DNA from: Phycisphaerales bacterium
GTDB taxonomy: Bacteria; Planctomycetota; Phycisphaerae; Phycisphaerales; SM1A02
Direction of reading: 5' to 3'
NCBI GenBank assembly: GCA_020345805.1
Contig: CP070772.1
Location: 2,782,220 to 2,832,792 of the forward strand
Length of the DNA stretch: 50,573 bases
Under the pieces are notes generated by a model. It was given only the letters and a program-made list of their open reading frames with translations. It ran no database searches and was not told the DNA's origin. Each line of letters begins with the position of its first letter. Within the stretch, counting starts at the first letter, position 1. Of the stretch, positions 29,512 to 40,109 are shown piece after piece. A program made the translations under genes and the position numbers.

Positions 29512-31686
29512 ATGTGGATAGGGCTGAAGCGCGGAAGCCACCGTTTCTGGGCGGCGATCGCCGTCGCGGCACTGATGCTCGCGGCCGCCGATCCGGCAGT
29601 GGCGAAAACGGTCTATGTTGACGGAGTGAACGGCAACGACGCCTGGGACGGCCTGTGCGAGGAATGGGACGGCGGCGCCTGCGGCCCCAAGAAAACCATC
29701 CAGGCCGGAATCAGCGTCGCGGTGAATGATGATGAGGTCGTCGTCGCCGACGCGGTCTATTCCGGCACCGGCAACATCAAGATCCAGTTCTTCGGCAAGA
29801 AGATCACCGTTCGCAGCAAGAACGGGCCGGACAACTGCATCGTGGATATTCTCAACGGCTCCGATCCGGGATTCCACTTCGAGAACGGAGAGGGGGTCGG
29901 CTCGGTCCTGGACGGGTTCACGGTCCGAAAATGCAGCGGATGCTGAGGGTCCAGCACCATCAACTGCTGGTCCAGCAGTCCGACCATCAAGAATTGCGTT
30001 CTCACCCAGAACCTGCCGGGCGGCATCCTGACCAACAACGCCAGCCCCCTGATCATCAACTGCACGTTCGATGCCAACACCGGCTCGGGCGTGGACTGCC
30101 TCTACGGCGGCAGCCCCACAATCATCGGCTGCACCTTCACCGGGTCCGAAAGCTCCGGGGTCTATTGCTACGACACGAGCCCCACCATCGTCAACTGCCT
30201 GATCTTCGAGAACGTGGGGACCTACGGAGGCGGGGGAATCTATTTCGATTACAGCAACGCCACCGTGGTCAACTGCACCATTGTGAACAACAGCGCCGTG
30301 TCGGGCGGGGGCGGTATCCACTGTTATAACAGCAATCCGACCTTGACCAACTGCATCGTGCGCGGCAACACGCCCGACGAGGTTTTCGGCGGCAACCCGC
30401 CAATCACTTACAGCAACGTCATGGGTGGTTACGCCGGTGCGGGCAACATCGATGCCGATCCGTACTTCGTGAATCCTGACGAGTCCGATTACCGCATCGG
30501 CCCCGGTTCGCCCTGCATCGACGCGGGCAACAACGGCGCCGTGCCTTCGGGGATCGATACCGATCTGGACGGCAATCCGCGGTTCATCGACGATCCGTTC
30601 ACTGATGACACGGGACTGGGCGATCCGCCCATCGTGGACATGGGGGCCAACGAGTATCAGGCCGACGCCACCGGCATGATGGTGCTCCCCGCCTTCGGCT
30701 TTTACTCGGACGGGCCCAACGGCGGGCCGTTCACGCCCGATTCGATCACTTACACGCTTCAGAACTACGATGCGATACCTCTGGAGTTCTCGGTGGGCAA
30801 GACGGCGCAGTGGCTTGAGCTCAGCAGCGACGGGGGCGTCATTCCCGCCGGGGGCGAGGTCGAGGTCGTGGCCTCCATCACCGCCTACGCCAACGGCCTG
30901 GCCAACGGCGAGTACCAGGACACCGTCCAGTTCACCAACGAAACCAATCACGACGGCGACACCACCCGCCTGGCGACTCTGGTGGTCGGCGTGCCGATTC
31001 CGATGGTTGTGTTTGATTTCGATATGGAGCCGGGCTGGTACGCCGAGGGTGAGTGGGGGTTCGGCCAGCCCCTCGGCCAGGGAGGTTACAACTTCGGAAA
31101 TCCCGATCCCACCAGCGGATATACCGGCGATAACGTCTACGGCTACAACCTCGAAGGCGACTACTCGGTCGACGTGGGCGGACCTTATTACCTCACCACC
31201 GGCGCGATCGACTGCTCGGATCTGACACACGTCGAGCTGCATTTCTATCGCTGGCTCAACAGCGACTATCAGCCGTACGTGTACCAGACGATCGAAGTGT
31301 CGAGCGACCGCGCGGGCTGGACACTGATCTGGGAGAACGGCAGCAGCGAGATCGCGGAGAACGCCTGGTCGGCGCAGGAGTACGACATTTCCGCCGTGGC
31401 CGACCTCCAGCCGACGGTCTATATCCGATGGGGTCACGAAGTGGCTTCCGCAGGCGCGTGGGCGTATTCCGGCTGGAACATCGATGACGTGCAGATCTGG
31501 GGCGTGGAGCAGGGAATGCCATGTCCCTGGGATGTCAACGATGACGAGGATGTCAATATTGACGACCTCTTCGAGGTGCTCGGCCACTGGGGCGAAGGGG
31601 CCGGCCCGTACGATGTCAATTTCGACGGCATCGTGGACATTGATGATGTGTTTGCCATCCTCGGAAACTGGGGGCCGTGCCCGTGA
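29512..31686 (+). CDS. Secreted parallel beta-helix protein with in-frame TGA (candidate selenoprotein) and C-terminal tag
   Basis: The frame runs 724 codons from ATG 29512 (ribosome site AAGGAAAGGAA) with a signal peptide (AAIAVAALMLAAADPAVA), but codon 145 is TGA at 29944-29946. The frame is unbroken on both sides: GFTVRKCSGC, then TGA, then GSSTINCW, SSSPTIKNC. These are the SPTIxNC rungs of right-handed beta-helix proteins, which continue to about residue 340. Then follow the Ig/BACON-like and jelly-roll domains shared with the peptidase at 20493, and the tag with linker HWGEGAGPYDVN. The TGA follows C141-S-G-C144 directly. A 17-nt hairpin with apex GGTCC sits 16 nt after it. Readthrough as selenocysteine, a recent nonsense mutation, or a sequencing error are the options; a gene caller would start at 30091 and lose the leader. 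Confidence 0.75.
29963..29979 (+). promoter_or_regulatory. SECIS-like hairpin after the TGA at 29944
   Basis: ACTGCTGGTCCAGCAGT is an 8+1+8 perfect inverted repeat, starting 16 nt after the TGA. Drawn realistically it has a six- or seven-pair stem with GGTCC or GTC at the tip. Its size and apex match the hairpin at 37672-37688, and the TGA is followed by GGGTCC here and GGGACC there. An alternative stem (CCAGCA with TGCTGG, 29951-29970) would compete with it. Confidence 0.5.
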
Positions 31687-33246: not shown

Positions 33247-34650
33247 ATGTGCCAAGCCCGACTGTTCCATGTTGTTCTCTCCGTGGCGGCGTTCTTCTGG
33301 GCAACCCTCGCCTCGACGGCCGACGCCCAACCCATCGGCTACGAGGGGTATCAGGTTGTTCGCATTACGGTCGGTGATGATGCGGATGTTCAGAAGGTGC
33401 ACGACCTTCAGAAGATGCTCGCGCGCGACTTCCAGGTGTGGTCGGAAGTGGTCAAGATCGGGCCGGTCGAGGTGCGGGTGGCGCCGATGGCGAGGCTGGC
33501 TCTCGCCGCCAGCGGCCTGCGCTATGAGGTCACCATCGAAGACCTGCAGCAGCACATCGACCGGCTATACTCCGGCGGCCGCGGCTTCTTCGACTCCCTC
33601 CAGACCTACGATGCGCACGTTCAGTTCATGAACGATCTGGTCGCGGCCCATCCCGACCTGGCTCAGATGGTCGATCTGGGGCAGTCCGTACAGGGACGCA
33701 CGATGTGGGCGATCCGCATCACCGGCCCCGGCACGGTCAAGCCGGGCCTGATGTACCACGGCGCCGAGCACGGCAACGAGCAGGCGGGCGCTTCGGTGGT
33801 TGTCTACGCCGCTGACTATCTGCTGACGAACTACGACACCGATCCGGATGTGGCGGCCCTGGTGGACAACGTCGAGTGGTACATACTTCCGATCATGAAC
33901 CCGGACGGGTACGTCGCATACGATCGATGGAATGCGCACGGAGTGGACCTGAACCGCAACTGGGACGGGCCGGGAGCGGGACAGGATCCCTGGGGCGGGC
34001 CGTATCCGTTTTCCGAACCGGAGACCCAGAACATGCGCGACTTTTTCCTTGCGCATTTTGGTGTGCGAGTGCACATCGACTTCCACGGTTACGTGCCGTG
34101 GATCATGTGGCCGTGGGCTCATATTCCCGATCACAGCCCCGACCACGACCAATACTACGTCTTGGGGGCCGAATACCGTGACCTGGTCGCCGCGGCCGGT
34201 GGCGGATATTACGACATCGGCACCATATACAACGTGGCATACCCTGTCTCCGGTTGCTCCACGAACTGGGTCTACGGCGTGGAGGATCGGTGGTCCTTCT
34301 CCATCGAAACGATTGATTACGACATGCCCGAGACCTGCGAGGAGTTCCTCGATGGCCAGTTGATGCTCGCGGAGTGGATCCGCAGCTACGACTGCAACGG
34401 CAACGGCGTGGTCGACTCGGAGGACATCGCCAATCAGACCAGCGAGGACGTCAATAACAACGGCGTTCCCGATGAATGCGAATGCCCTGCCGACGTCAAC
34501 TCCGACGCAAAGGTCAACATCGACGACGTGTTCGCCGTGCTGGGCGCGTGGGGGCCGTGCGACGATTGTCCGGAGGATGTCAACGCCGACGGTGCGGTCG
34601 ATATCGATGACATCTCCGCGGTGCTGGACGGGTGGGGGCCGTGCGATTGA
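33247..34650 (+). CDS. Secreted M14-family zinc carboxypeptidase with C-terminal tag
   Basis: This 467-residue metallocarboxypeptidase starts with GGAGG about 9 nt upstream of ATG and a leader ending STADA. An N-terminal prodomain-like segment (about 35-110) precedes the catalytic domain. The zinc pair is HGNE (H175, E178; the neighbouring H171/E174 is an alternative), substrate residues are in DLNRNW (N236, R237), the third ligand is H280 in DFHGY, and the catalytic Glu is E354 in FSIETI. It should release C-terminal residues from peptides outside the cell. A DCNGNGVVD...NNNGVPDECE calcium-type repeat and the tag with linker PCDDCPED follow; the end is WGPCD instead of WGPCP. Confidence 0.9.
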   Translation: MCQARLFHVVLSVAAFFWATLASTADAQPIGYEGYQVVRITVGDDADVQKVHDLQKMLARDFQVWSEVVKIGPVEVRVAPMARLALAASGLRYEVTIEDLQQHIDRLYSGGRGFFDSLQTYDAHVQFMNDLVAAHPDLAQMVDLGQSVQGRTMWAIRITGPGTVKPGLMYHGAEHGNEQAGASVVVYAADYLLTNYDTDPDVAALVDNVEWYILPIMNPDGYVAYDRWNAHGVDLNRNWDGPGAGQDPWGGPYPFSEPETQNMRDFFLAHFGVRVHIDFHGYVPWIMWPWAHIPDHSPDHDQYYVLGAEYRDLVAAAGGGYYDIGTIYNVAYPVSGCSTNWVYGVEDRWSFSIETIDYDMPETCEEFLDGQLMLAEWIRSYDCNGNGVVDSEDIANQTSEDVNNNGVPDECECPADVNSDAKVNIDDVFAVLGAWGPCDDCPEDVNADGAVDIDDISAVLDGWGPCD

Positions 34651-34884: not shown

Positions 34885-37302
34885 ATGAGCCAAGTTGCAG
34901 TGATTAAGAGGATGCTCAGGCTGGCCATCATTGCCGCGGCGGCCTGCGGCAAGGTCGCTTCCGCCGCGGGACCGAGTCATCAGCTTGCCCCGGAAGAAGC
35001 CCTGAGGCCTGTGGGCGTCGATCCTTCGGCGATCCTTCGGAACCTGCCCTCCGCCTTCGATTGGCGCGACTTCGGCGCGTGCACCGCGATCAGGGCTCAG
35101 GTCTGTTCGGACGCCTCCTGGGCGTTCAGCGCGATCGGCACGGTGGAAAGCGCCATCCTGATCCACCATGGCGTCAAGACCGAACTTTCCGAGCAGTGGG
35201 TGATCAGTTGCACCGACGCCGGCCTCTACGGTGCCGGATCATCCGCTCTCGCCCTGGACTACATGACCATGGACGGGCCGCAGGACCCCTGCGGAGACGG
35301 CGGCGCGGTCCTGGAATGGGACTGCTACTTCCATTGCTGGCCTCCGCCCTGCGATTGCCCTTATCGGCATCCTTATTATGTGGAGTCCTGGTCCTATGTC
35401 GGCCCGACCATCGACGGCGTGCCCGCCGTGGACGAGCTGAAGCAGGCGATTCTGGAGCATGGGCCGGTTTCGGTGCGCGTCCATCGCACGGATGCATTCG
35501 ACCTCTACGAGCGCGGCGTGTTCAGCGAGTGTGAAGACGGGCCGGCCGAGCACAGCGCGGTTCTGGTCGGATGGGATGACGACCAGGGCGCAGAGGGTGT
35601 GTGGATTCTTCGCAACTCCTGGGGCAAAGGCTGGGGCGAGGGCGGCTACATGCGCATCGAGTACGGCTGCTCGCGCGTCGGCTACGGCGCCTGTTACGTG
35701 ACGGGGATCATCAGGGACTGCAACGGCAACGGCGTGCCCGATGACCAGGACATCGCCAGCCACACCAGCGAAGACTGCAACGACAACGGTGTCCCGGATG
35801 AGTGTGATCTTGCGGATCTGGAGCCGGGCTTCAGCGGCGCGGTCTCCTGGTCCACGTTCGATCCCGCCGCCGCCGGCGTGGGCCGTCATCCGATCGGCTT
35901 TCACGGGGCGGTTTTCGACGGCCGGTTTGTCTATCTCATCCCCAATCAGAACCCGCCGGGCCGTCACGCCGAAGCGCTGCGCTTCGACACCACCGCTGGT
36001 TTCGATGATCCCGCCTCATGGGCCGCGCACGATGTCGGATACGACGACATGAATAACGAGCGGGGCGGATACTCCGGCGGAGTCTTCGACGGGCGATACG
36101 TGTACTTCGCGCCGGACCGCGGAAGCACCGGCGAGCACGGCGAAGTGCTGCGACTAGACACGCTCGCCGACTTCGAGCAGGACGCGGCCTGGATCTCCTA
36201 CGATCCCGGCGAGCACGGCGTGGGCGATGATCCCGTCGGGTACAACGGCGCGGTCTTCGACGGCAGGTACGTCTATTTCGTGCCCGACAACAACAGCAGC
36301 GGACCGCACGGGGAAGTGCTGCGTTGCGACACCACCGGTGATTTTGCCGATGTCTCCGCCTGGGCCGCGTTCGATCCCGGTGATTACGGCGTGGGCCACG
36401 ATCCGGACGGTTATCGCGGCGGAGTGTTTGACGGCCGATACGTCTATTTCGTCCCGCATTACAGCGGCGCCCTTTACGACTTTGAAATCCTGCGCTACGA
36501 CACCGCCGCGGAATTCGCCGACCCTTCGTCATGGACCACTTACGATCCGAATCTCGAAGGGATGGGCGGATCGAACGGCGCGGTCTTCGACGGACGCTAC
36601 GTGTATTTCGCGCCGATCAGCGGCTTTGGCGAGCGGACCAGTGACGTGCTGAGACTTGATGTGACCGGAGATTTCAGCGACCCTTCGGCGTGGTCGCGGT
36701 TCGATCCCTATGAGCACGGCGTGGGCCATAACGCCGACACCGAGTATCGCGGCGGCGTGTTCGACGGGCGATACGTCTACTTCTCGCCCTTCGCCGGCGA
36801 CAGCGCTCCGTTCGGGGAAGTGCTGCGCTATGACACGGCAGGCGATTTCGCAGACGCCTCCTCGTGGGACGCGTACGACGCGGGGGCCAACGCGGTGGGC
36901 GAGGATCCGGACGGCTATGACGGGGCGGCCTTCGACGGCAGGTACGTCTATTTCGCGCCCCTGTCCAACGACGGGGGATACCACTGCGAAGTGCTCCGCT
37001 ACGACACCGCCCCCGATCGCGTACCCGACTGCAACGAGAACGGCATTCTCGACGAGTGCGACATCGCCAGCGGCTACAGCGACGACCTGAACAACAACGG
37101 CATTCCCGACGAATGCGAAGGGCGGCCGGTGCGGGCGGGGCGCCAGGCAACAGGCGCCGCGGACATATTTGCGGTTCTCAGCGCCTGGGGGCGGTGCGAT
37201 GATTGCCCCGAGGACGTCAACGCGGACGGTCGGGTGGACGCGGCCGATCTGCTGGCGGTGCTCGCCCGCCGCGGGCCGCAACACCGGTCCGGTGACCGGT
37301 AA
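34885..37302 (+). CDS. Secreted papain-like (C1) homologue with catalytic Cys replaced by Ser, plus propeller
   Basis: After a signal peptide (LRLAIIAAAACGKVASA) comes a C1 peptidase fold starting at AFDWRD. The oxyanion Gln (Q72), the His (H223 in EHSAVLVGWD) and the Asn (N244 in RNSWGKGWGEGG) are all present, but the nucleophile position reads ASWAF with S78 (TCC) where the paralogue at 40426 has GSCWAF. The fold therefore looks catalytically altered or dead. A DCNGNGVPD calcium-type repeat follows, then seven repeats of about 57 residues (GAVFDGRYVYFAP...GEVLRYDT), enough for one propeller. The tag is decayed: its first EF-hand is lost (RQATGAADIF), and the end reads RRGPQHRSGDR instead of WGPCP. 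It may be a pseudopeptidase or a gene beginning to decay. Confidence 0.85.
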   Translation: MSQVAVIKRMLRLAIIAAAACGKVASAAGPSHQLAPEEALRPVGVDPSAILRNLPSAFDWRDFGACTAIRAQVCSDASWAFSAIGTVESAILIHHGVKTELSEQWVISCTDAGLYGAGSSALALDYMTMDGPQDPCGDGGAVLEWDCYFHCWPPPCDCPYRHPYYVESWSYVGPTIDGVPAVDELKQAILEHGPVSVRVHRTDAFDLYERGVFSECEDGPAEHSAVLVGWDDDQGAEGVWILRNSWGKGWGEGGYMRIEYGCSRVGYGACYVTGIIRDCNGNGVPDDQDIASHTSEDCNDNGVPDECDLADLEPGFSGAVSWSTFDPAAAGVGRHPIGFHGAVFDGRFVYLIPNQNPPGRHAEALRFDTTAGFDDPASWAAHDVGYDDMNNERGGYSGGVFDGRYVYFAPDRGSTGEHGEVLRLDTLADFEQDAAWISYDPGEHGVGDDPVGYNGAVFDGRYVYFVPDNNSSGPHGEVLRCDTTGDFADVSAWAAFDPGDYGVGHDPDGYRGGVFDGRYVYFVPHYSGALYDFEILRYDTAAEFADPSSWTTYDPNLEGMGGSNGAVFDGRYVYFAPISGFGERTSDVLRLDVTGDFSDPSAWSRFDPYEHGVGHNADTEYRGGVFDGRYVYFSPFAGDSAPFGEVLRYDTAGDFADASSWDAYDAGANAVGEDPDGYDGAAFDGRYVYFAPLSNDGGYHCEVLRYDTAPDRVPDCNENGILDECDIASGYSDDLNNNGIPDECEGRPVRAGRQATGAADIFAVLSAWGRCDDCPEDVNADGRVDAADLLAVLARRGPQHRSGDR

Positions 37303-37435
37303 TCGTGGCCGGGTCGGTCCGGCGAGCCCGCTGATTGCGGCGGGCCGGGCGGGGCTGACGATCCCCAAACGGCCGTTCGCGGGGCATGCGATGGCTGCCC
37401 CGGGGCCGGGGAGCGGCGATTTTGAACCTCGGATC

Positions 37436-37463
37436 TTGTACCGGCCGCGGAAGGGGCTAAACT
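37436..37463 (+). promoter_or_regulatory. Promoter candidate for the UxxC protein
   Basis: TTGTAC, a 16-nt spacer, then TAAACT at 37458-37463, 82 nt before the ATG. Confidence 0.38.
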
Positions 37464-37545
37464 CGATAGCGCGACGCCCCCCTTGTGTCGTTTCGGGGCC
37501 GTCGGGTCACGGTGGCCCGGGGCCGTACACCAGAAAGGAGAAGAC

Positions 37546-38427
37546 ATGTCAATTCCCAGAATGCTTCCGGGGATCGCCGCCGTTCTGCTGGCGGCCTCGC
37601 CCGCCGCCGCGACCGTCGAGCGCACCGTCCTGGGCGAATACTTCACCGCGACGTGGTGAGGGACCTGCGCCACCACGGGTCCCGTGGTCAGCGACTTGAT
37701 TGATTCCTATCCCGACACCTTCGCGGTGATCCAGCACCACATTCAAGACGGGTATCAGACCAACTGGGGCAACGACAGGGCCGACTACTACACCGACTAC
37801 CTGCTCCTGCCCTGGTTCCAGTACGACGGCCTGTTCGATGCCTGGCCGTACTACACGTACGAGTCCAAGCTCATCACTCGCCAGGCGGTTCCCACCGATC
37901 TGCACGTCGACATCATGGTTCAGGAGATCCGCGCCAACACCTACGAGGTCATCGGCCAGTTCTGTGTGGAGGCGGACGGCACCGGAAAGATGGCGCGTCT
38001 TTATGCCGCCCAGGTTCTGGACAATTGGCCCGCCAGTCCCAGCTACAGCCGCAACACCTTCAAGCAGGCGGGCGAGACGGTTGACGTCGAGCTGCTGCCC
38101 GGGTTGTGCGCCTACTGGTCGTGGCAGTTCACCCTGGATGCCGACAGCCAGGCCCAGGTGGAGGATGTGAAGTTCGCCGTCTGGGCCCAGGAGCCCCTGC
38201 CCCTCGGCCCGGCCGAAGTCTATCAGGCAAAGATGATCGCCTATCCGTTCTCCGAGCCGTGCCCAGCCGACGTCAACACCGACGGGATCGTGAACATCGA
38301 CGATCTGTTCCAGGTTCTCGGGGCGTGGGGCACGTGCGATGACTGCCCGGAGGATGTGAACGATGACGGGCTGGTGGACATCGATGACATCTTCGACATT
38401 CTCGCCGCATGGGGCCCGTGCCCGTAA
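37546..38427 (+). CDS. Secreted thioredoxin-like UxxC protein (candidate selenoprotein) with C-terminal tag
   Basis: ATG 37546 (ribosome site AAAGGAGAAG) opens a frame of 293 codons with a signal peptide (LPGIAAVLLAASPAAA). Codon 38 is TGA (37657-37659), set in GEYFTATW, then TGA, then GTC: exactly the position of the first, nucleophilic Cys of a thioredoxin WCxxC site, with C41 as resolving Cys. The frame then continues as a thioredoxin-like domain (PVVSDLIDSYPDTFAVIQHH, WFQYDG near the cis-Pro region, about residue 90) and ends with the tag, linker TCDDCPED, WGPCP. A SECIS-like hairpin begins 8 nt after the TGA. I read it as selenocysteine: an exported redox protein. Without recoding, a caller would start at GTG 37684 and drop the leader and active site. 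Confidence 0.85.
37668..37693 (+). promoter_or_regulatory. SECIS-like recoding hairpin after the TGA at 37657
   Basis: The core ACCACGGGTCCCGTGGT (37672-37688) is an 8+1+8 perfect inverted repeat. Below it, CGC (37668-37670) can pair with GCG (37691-37693) across a small internal loop. Read as a six-pair stem, the apical loop is GGTCC, about 19-23 nt after the TGA. Bacterial SECIS elements sit within the coding region just after UGA and need G/U at the tip; the E. coli fdhF hairpin has a comparable size and a GGUC apex. The same 17-nt architecture recurs at 29963-29979. Confidence 0.65.
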
Positions 38428-38481
38428 GGAAAGCTGAGCCGCGCGGTGACAAAGCGAGGGGTTAAACATGAGTGAGGCGAG

Positions 38482-38514
38482 GGGCCTGTGCTGAATGCGG
38501 CGCAGGCCCTTTTT
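38482..38514 (+). terminator. Rho-independent terminator
   Basis: GGGCCTG pairs with CAGGCCC, extended inward by T-G and GC pairs, followed by five T residues (38510-38514). The preceding GTGAGGCGAGG is shared with the terminator at 43189. Confidence 0.85.
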
Positions 38515-38567
38515 CATTGGGCGGTCGCTCTTGGCGCCCGCAGCACGCTTTTTCGTCCGATTAGTCC

Positions 38568-38596
38568 TTGAATCGCCCCACAGGATGAGTGAAACT
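38568..38596 (+). promoter_or_regulatory. Promoter candidate for the gene at 38622
   Basis: TTGAAT, a 17-nt spacer, then GAAACT at 38591-38596; this would give a leader of about 20 nt before the ATG. Confidence 0.35.
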
Positions 38597-38621
38597 GTGA
38601 CCGATTAAGGAGGGAAAACCG

Positions 38622-40109
38622 ATGCACTCTGATCGTCGATTAGTCGTTTGCGCCGCTCTGGCCGGGGGGATCCTTCTTCTCGGGGCCGCCCCGGCCGGGC
38701 AGAGGGAGCAGGCCATCACCACGCTCGTGCTGGAGGGCGATTCAGTAACCGACGTGGGGCTCATCACCAGCATCGCCAACATTGCGGTCAACAGCTCCGG
38801 CCAGTGGCTGGTGGAGGCGGACACCGATCACGCCAACAGCGATGCGGACCAGGTCCTGCTCCGCAACGGCGAGCTGTACTGGCGCGAGGACGACCCGGTG
38901 AAGGTGCCGGACGGCGCGCGGCTCGATTCGTTCGACTCGATCACGCTCAACGACTCCGCCCACAGCGGGTTCAATTTCTTCCTCAGCGGCACGGGCGGCA
39001 GCTACGACGATTCGGGCGTCTATTGCGATCACTTCGGGCCCGGTTCCGACCCCTTCGAGGGAACGGTGGCGGTGGTGCTGGAGAGCGAGGAAGCTCCGGG
39101 GTTGACCCCCGGCACGCCGTTCATCGGTTTCTTCGACGTCAAGATCAACAACCTTGACCATCTGTCGTGCGTGGCGTCGGTTGATGACCCCAACATCCCC
39201 ACCGCCGTTGATCGCGCCCTGTACATCTTCGTTTCCGATCCCGACAACGGCGGGATTGTCGATTTCACGCTGATCGCCAAGGAAGGGGACATTCTGCCCG
39301 GCCAGGTCGATCCGATCTATGACTTCGAGACCGGGCCGCACGAGTCGGCCATCAACGACATGGACAACGTCCTGTACGGAGCCGACCTCGATGGCCCGAC
39401 CGCGACGGACGGCGTGGTCTATCTTTATGACCACGCGGCGGGAATGAACGTGCTGCTGGCCCAGGAGGGTTTCCCCTCGCCGATCCCCGAGCGCGACTGG
39501 TACGTGCTGAGCAGTCCCGAGCTGGACCTGTCCAACAACGGGGATTACGTCTTCAGCGGCCGCCTCACCGGCGATACCACCACCGACTCGGTCATCATCG
39601 TCAACGGCGAGAAGTTCATGCAGGAGGGCGATCCGCCTCCGGGAATCGCCGGCGATTTCGTCCTCACCGGCTTCGGCACCGGCCCCCTGCGCATCAGCGA
39701 CAAGGGTGATGTGCTCTGGTACGGCGACTGGGACGATCCCGACACCGACATCGACACCGGCCTGTTCCTCAATGACACGCTACTCGTGCAGGAAGGCGTG
39801 ACGGAAATCGACGGAGCAGTTGTCGATACGATCCGGGGCGTGGAGGACGGCTACCACCTCTCCAGCAACGGCCGCTTCGTCATCTTCGAGGCCATCTTCG
39901 TTGACGGCCGGGAGGGCGCTTTCCTGATCGACATGGGCGCGGACTGCCCGGAGGATGTGAACGGCGATGGCGTGGTGGACATCGATGATCTTTTCGAGAT
40001 TCTCGGCCATTGGGGCGAAGGCCCCGGCCAGTATGACGTCAACGATGACGGAACCGTGGACATCGACGACATCTTCGCAGTCCTCGCCGCGTGGGGGCCG
40101 TGTCCGTAA
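38622..40109 (+). CDS. Secreted beta-rich repeat protein with C-terminal tag
   Basis: The 495-residue product has one of the best ribosome sites in the window (AAGGAGG) and a signal peptide (VVCAALAGGILLLGAAPAG). The body contains repeated phrases of one type: a residue pair about a displayed object (LVLEGDSV, LIAKEGDIL, LLAQEGFPS, FMQEGDPPP, LLVQEGVTE) followed by SIxLND/ALNDMDNV/ISDKGDVLWYG-like turns. This looks like a multi-bladed propeller of about six or seven units, related in style to the HAF protein at 31868, but I do not recognise a named family with certainty. The tag has the Cys-free linker (HWGEGPGQYDVN) and ends WGPCP. It is likely exported; role unknown. Confidence 0.8.
   Translation: MHSDRRLVVCAALAGGILLLGAAPAGQREQAITTLVLEGDSVTDVGLITSIANIAVNSSGQWLVEADTDHANSDADQVLLRNGELYWREDDPVKVPDGARLDSFDSITLNDSAHSGFNFFLSGTGGSYDDSGVYCDHFGPGSDPFEGTVAVVLESEEAPGLTPGTPFIGFFDVKINNLDHLSCVASVDDPNIPTAVDRALYIFVSDPDNGGIVDFTLIAKEGDILPGQVDPIYDFETGPHESAINDMDNVLYGADLDGPTATDGVVYLYDHAAGMNVLLAQEGFPSPIPERDWYVLSSPELDLSNNGDYVFSGRLTGDTTTDSVIIVNGEKFMQEGDPPPGIAGDFVLTGFGTGPLRISDKGDVLWYGDWDDPDTDIDTGLFLNDTLLVQEGVTEIDGAVVDTIRGVEDGYHLSSNGRFVIFEAIFVDGREGAFLIDMGADCPEDVNGDGVVDIDDLFEILGHWGEGPGQYDVNDDGTVDIDDIFAVLAAWGPCP

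Follow-up and report, generated by a model that had tools for sequence, protein, structure and literature searches.

A predicted exported selenoprotein combining a UxxC site with a dockerin-like tail in a Phycisphaerales bacterium

An in-frame TGA at the active site of a thioredoxin-like protein

Does the TGA codon found at the active site of a thioredoxin-like gene in a Phycisphaerales bacterium end translation, or is it read as selenocysteine (Sec)? The gene lies at positions 37546–38427 of a 50,573-nt stretch of contig CP070772.1 (assembly GCA_020345805.1; the whole stretch is hereafter referred to as the window), and all features described below are on the plus strand unless otherwise stated. 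The frame starts with ATG, contains 293 codons plus a terminal TAA, and includes a single internal stop, the TGA at 37657–37659 (codon 38). A Shine-Dalgarno-like sequence, AAAGGAG (37534–37540), can be read 5 nt 5' of the ATG. The context of the TGA, GEYFTATW-TGA-GTC, places it at the first Cys position of a WCxxC site, with Cys41 (37666–37668) as the predicted resolving residue. Translation and the alignment of homologues confirmed this placement, which had been proposed in a first-pass annotation of the window. Its genome contains five paralogues with such a TGA, this gene among them, and it is therefore not a lone oddity. A selenium-containing redox protein is predicted because the TGA stands where close relatives carry the active-site Cys, and we consider it very probable that 37546–38427 is a selenoprotein gene in which UGA is read as Sec with the aid of a downstream hairpin, giving a predicted exported thioredoxin-like UxxC protein with a dockerin-like tail.

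Homologues were sought with the window protein in 61 genomes and with a domain alignment of 17 rows (A1), invariant in the column of Cys41 (C22), across 397 genomes of the class. At most seven candidates were scored per genome in the class search, so that genomes counted as lacking a TGA form may hold one unseen. Sixty-eight stretches fetched from the class search were combined with earlier ones, with at least three partial contig-end hits (G333:C91, G333:C59, and G268:C151) omitted. In the 91 profile-placed matches from the fetched loci, the codon at the site reads TGA in 51, TGC in 30, TGT in 7, and TAT, GGC, and AGC in one each; the 37 Cys rows include one unrelated thioredoxin-like protein (TGC; L048, plus strand) and one match of uncertain placement (L121). 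Of the 89 family rows that were placed, 86 thus have TGA or Cys, which is the outcome of a check named in the first-pass annotation, and Cys occupies the site in 35 of the 38 non-TGA rows among them. The 51 TGA forms come from 23 genomes, five of them (two in tandem) from the genome of the window, and none contains another stop in the matched domain. The nearest full-length relative (P0003) has Cys at the site and is identical at 11 of 12 aligned residues just upstream and at 183 of 255 downstream; another full-length relative (P0004) has Ser there. Both keep the frame through the site, which, together with the recurrence of TGA at this one column, marks the codon as more than a chance stop.

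Query residues 20–236 are matched by 34 protein-database entries, one of them the shortened entry of the window protein itself. Scanning named genomes with a narrow pattern gave six loci, all in metagenome-assembled genomes labelled Phycisphaerales, Phycisphaerae, or Planctomycetota. This is a large, little-described family in Phycisphaerae-type bacteria. In a tree of 87 of the 91 rows, constructed with the site column masked, the TGA label requires 17 changes (bootstrap range 16–18; shuffled labels 28.3), at least nine Sec/Cys label changes being forced by strongly supported branches, which indicates that Sec and Cys have been swapped repeatedly. The window protein falls in a 12-row clade of 10 TGA and 2 Cys forms (support 100/99).

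Some members depart from the UxxC pattern. Tyr, Gly, or Ser replaces Sec/Cys in L105, L111 (plus strand), L142, and P0004, which suggests that these proteins may be redox-dead paralogues. Two TGA forms, L144 (UAYD) and L145 (UGAD), lack the Cys three residues past U, and the resolving residue may have been lost or moved in them. In L121 (genome G253), a Cys is aligned at the site and a TGA follows three codons on (CGV-U), giving a would-be CxxU; the placement is uncertain because the neighbouring residues are unlike those of other members, and the copy may be shifted or broken.

Selenocysteine machinery and the predicted hairpin

The genome containing the window (G000) is a single 3.94-Mb scaffold rated 80% complete. 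It encodes a tRNA-Sec (70.3 bits, cut-off 47; identified by ARAGORN as SeC with the anticodon tca), SelB (324.4 bits, with only profile positions 2–273 seen), and SelD (350.6 bits, over the cut-off). The selD gene, too, contains one in-frame TGA (L046:7495; context CSG-U-AG), and SelD is probably itself a selenoprotein. Across the sampled genomes, SelA scores over the cut-off in 20 of the 23 genomes with a TGA form versus 5 of the 15 in which no TGA form was found (P = 0.001); these co-occurrence counts leave out G253, and the Fisher tests treat genomes as independent of kinship. No SelA match is present in any of the nine Cys-only genomes belonging to the same family as the genome of the window. 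The SelA matches of six genomes (G138, G143, G148, G268, G333, and G399) are split at model positions of about 258/267 into pieces about 80–140 nt apart that share one open frame, and a short insertion that keeps the frame may be the cause.

A Sec insertion sequence (SECIS) hairpin is predicted at 37672–37688, with a 7-bp stem, a GUC loop (37679–37681), a spacing of 19, and an energy of -9.6 kcal/mol. When the U of UGA is numbered 1, the stem is formed by positions 16–22 and 26–32 and the loop by G23-U24-C25, of which G23 and U24 are also the loop positions of the Escherichia coli fdhF element. The window has A19-U29 in place of the majority pair G19-C29, both sides being changed, and some family members show a different type of loop, CGUGC or CGUGA, on the stem 18–24/30–36. 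The bacterial SECIS model, as given in the accessible text of PMC13188914, specifies a loop of 3–9, a stem of 4–16, G in the first two loop positions, a spacing of 16–37, and an energy of -7.5 or below. It was applied here in a strict, bulge-free form, with the L048 plus-strand row, L121, and one duplicate non-TGA form dropped (38 to 37 non-TGA forms, three of which have Tyr, Gly, or Ser). The window hairpin conforms to the model, as do 29 of the 51 TGA forms versus none of the 37 non-TGA forms (P = 1.2e-9), and synonymous shuffles of the TGA forms yielded a mean of 5.05 and at most 11 conforming sequences. All five core pairs (18–22/26–30) form in 29 of 51 TGA forms versus 3 of 37 others (P = 1.5e-6); a slid stem gave 0–3 of 51, and synonymous shuffles gave a mean of 4.4 and at most 10. 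The G23U24 dinucleotide occurs in 40 of 51 TGA forms and in 6 of 37 others; in shuffles, the mean count is 15 and the maximum 29.

Several results weigh against Sec insertion at this locus. SelA was not found in a profile search of the window's own genome, and selB is cut by a run of 100 Ns, so that its C-terminal, hairpin-binding part is not seen. At the Rfam cut-off of 47 bits, tRNA-Sec is matched in 31 of 39 genomes, including some Cys-only genomes at 47–51 bits; we take these low matches, unchecked, for cross-hits to other long-armed tRNAs. The co-occurrence of TGA forms with SelA over its cut-off or a tRNA-Sec match (23 of 23 TGA-form genomes versus 6 of the 15 in which no TGA form was found; P = 3e-5) relies on a tRNA-Sec threshold of 60 bits, which was our own choice and was set after the scores had been seen. 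The strict SECIS model does not accommodate 22 of the 51 TGA forms, and the window hairpin taken alone is weak, as 440 of 3,000 synonymous shuffles also conform to the model. Its stem appears in the minimum-energy folds of 37652–37712 and 37640–37720 but not in that of 37657–37702; the fold z-scores of the three stretches (+0.05, -1.23, and -1.13) mark none as unusually stable, and a rival hairpin immediately after the UGA is favoured by all three centroids and by the minimum-energy fold of the shortest stretch. No SECIS element was present among the Rfam matches of 37400–38600, which comprised four matches, all far below their gathering scores.

The missing selA is likely explained by an assembly gap. 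A second run of 100 Ns begins 101 nt 5' of the tRNA-Sec gene, and in a genome of the same family (G008) selA (C39:13948-15291) is located directly 5' of the tRNA-Sec gene (C39:15427-15522), and the tRNA-Sec stretch of G008 is 98% identical to that of the window's genome; the gap therefore lies where selA would be expected. The first-pass annotation had named the Sec machinery as a test of its proposal: tRNA-Sec, SelB, and SelD were recovered over their cut-offs, but SelA was not. The machinery that was recovered and the homologues support the selenoprotein reading.

Within the window, 4 of 47 candidate TGAs pass the same hairpin test. One of these, TGA 29944 in a beta-helix, dockerin-tailed frame (29512–31686, plus strand), was considered as a second selenoprotein and was rejected on the basis of its homologues: at the corresponding site, 116 homologues show 6 Cys, 16 gaps, and many other residues in the rest, in an alignment that is loose owing to repeats. 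Because the homologues lack a conserved Cys there, TGA 29944 looks like a nonsense change rather than a Sec codon. These results show that passing the hairpin test does not by itself identify a Sec codon.

Domain architecture and competing explanations

The predicted fold consists of a thioredoxin-like domain (residues 26–114; 37621–37887), an Omp28/HBP35-type beta-sandwich domain (residues 117–236; 37894–38253), and a GC-type dockerin-like tail (residues 239–289; 38260–38412), the first two standing, in the model, in the order of the Omp28/HBP35 fold. The N-terminal segment (residues 1–24; 37546–37617) resembles a signal peptide by eye, with a hydrophobic stretch followed by small residues; residues 1–20 have low confidence in the structure model. 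Pro89 (37810–37812) is invariant in A1 (as P70) and in a further alignment (A3) and occupies the thioredoxin cis-Pro place, the role of which we take to be the usual one for the family. The exported architecture described in the first-pass annotation holds in its signal-peptide-like start, thioredoxin-like domain, and tail, but the latter two score below the curated cut-offs (Pfam Thioredoxin PF00085, 19.8 bits versus a gathering cut-off of 23.5; NF041540, 26.2 bits versus 29). When the window protein was used to search its own genome (39 of 218 candidates scored), 34 of the 39 scored matches covered the tail end alone.

Similar tails are also found next to the gene: a predicted M14 carboxypeptidase (33247–34650, plus strand) has one scoring 24.1 bits, below the cut-off, and a DUF7453/NxxGxxAF protein (38622–40109, plus strand) has one scoring 30.7 bits, above the NF041540 cut-off. 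A papain-family protease is encoded at 34885–37302 (plus strand). In the family, CxxCH heme-like motifs lie past the thioredoxin-like and beta domains of several long members (L096, L109, L111, L119, L120, L124, L126, L127, L128, L129, L133, L134, L136, and L141), suggesting a possible fusion with a cytochrome c-like part.

Judging from the tRNA-Sec, selB, and selD genes and the hairpin, SelB carrying Sec-tRNA-Sec would recognize the hairpin and insert Sec at the UGA. The sequence and the occurrence of the tail on many other proteins of the genome suggest that the chain is likely to be exported via its predicted signal peptide and that the tail is likely to keep it outside the cytoplasm. Client disulfides would then be attacked by the selenolate at position 38, and Cys41 would resolve the mixed selenylsulfide. 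From the UxxC motif, the conserved Pro, and the fold, the protein would be a surface thiol-disulfide oxidoreductase resembling HBP35, the 35-kDa hemin-binding protein of Porphyromonas gingivalis, which is the closest solved structure (5y1a; 16% identity). The clients, at a guess, are Cys-bearing dockerin-tailed exoproteins of the same genome.

The alternative that survives best, although improbable, accepts a selenoprotein but gives the domain a different role, for example in binding heme or a metal or in handling selenium, instead of thiol-disulfide exchange. HBP35 binds hemin according to the available part of PMC2907840, and L144 and L145 lack the second Cys, both of which fit another job; the second Cys and the Pro are, however, invariant alongside the UxxC site in the 17 rows of A1, and the same part of that report describes recombinant HBP35 as reducing insulin, an activity that was gone when both Cys residues were mutated.

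It is far less probable that the TGA is a true stop, leaving either a pseudogene or a 37-residue peptide and a separately started downstream protein. The database product of this gene (P0002, 247 aa) does begin past the TGA, and an apparent plain nonsense TGA occurs elsewhere in the window, at 29944. Such a downstream product would, however, lack the signal peptide and half of the active site, and a simple stop does not account for the same-column TGA in 51 members with otherwise open domains or for a hairpin far commoner in TGA forms than in others. Since P0002 starts past the TGA, the active site is lost from the database protein; the homologous entries P0005 and P0006 also begin past the active site, and members of the family are thus probably easy to miss in public annotation.

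A sequencing or assembly error that turned TGC or TGG into TGA is slightly less credible still: the assembly is gapped, as its runs of 100 Ns attest, but the same codon is TGA in four paralogues of the same genome and in 46 members of other genomes. The least credible reading is that TGA specifies an ordinary amino acid through some other suppressor tRNA or a genetic code altered throughout the genome, which would agree with the frame remaining open beyond the TGA but not with the presence of Sec machinery, the predominance of Cys in non-TGA relatives, or the use of TGA as the terminal stop in 12 of 25 TGA-form genes with a seen end, a use indicating that these organisms retain UGA as a normal stop and need a local signal to decode it.

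If Sec is inserted as proposed, the exported selenoproteins known from bacteria would gain a branch that is multi-copy and predicted to be held at the surface, and the frequent exchange of Sec and Cys within this family would offer a natural test of the benefit of selenium outside the cytoplasm. More tentatively, and with the odds rather against it, Phycisphaerae-type bacteria may possess an extracytoplasmic selenium-based disulfide system, in which a radiating family of dockerin-tailed UxxC proteins services Cys-bearing exoproteins with the same tail; such a system would have up to five members per sampled genome and many Sec/Cys switches.

Comparison with known systems

The first-pass annotation did not recognize this architecture. 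A comparable selenoprotein, whether dockerin-tailed or from Phycisphaerae, was not found in the accessible portions of the open-licence literature (PMC4807772, PMC13188914, PMC2398784, and PMC12013277), excluding the supplementary tables of PMC4807772, which hold selenoprotein candidates of two planctomycetes and where a relative might stand. No paper joining Omp28 and selenoprotein turned up in the open-licence literature either, and the one that joined selenoprotein with dockerin dealt with carbohydrate-active enzymes. The theme of a UxxC selenoprotein with a thioredoxin fold is nevertheless not wholly unknown, because a related family has already been named: NF045500 (Omp28_seleno, 'Omp28-related selenoprotein') corresponds, in the accessible text of PMC13188914, to the hypothetical protein GOS_C (UxxC), for which the available part of PMC2398784 lists 74 Sec and 312 Cys sequences with a thioredoxin-like fold and a UxxC motif.

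The window family resembles NF045500/GOS_C in being a UxxC selenoprotein family with a thioredoxin-like fold, Cys homologues, and a bacterial SECIS, and all 17 A1 members match NF045500 at E-values up to 1. It differs in score: the window protein reaches 16–17 bits (16.4) against a cut-off of 200, and the best match in eight family-bearing genomes is 94.9 bits. NF045500 was over the cut-off in none of 392 genomes of the phylum, but none of 14 control genomes matched either, so that absence is not demonstrated. The window protein probably shares ancestry with NF045500 and would work in the same way, but by the curated cut-off it is not a member. Neither the Omp28 outer membrane lipoprotein (PF11551; 2r2c) nor DUF1223 (PF06764) is matched by the window protein at E-values up to 1.

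HBP35 differs from the window protein in having Cys in place of Sec and a Por-secretion C-terminal domain in place of the dockerin-like tail. The GC-type dockerin proteins (NF041540) provide the counterpart of that tail, which is common to many other proteins of the genome; in the window protein, it scores just below the cut-off and follows a predicted selenoprotein domain.
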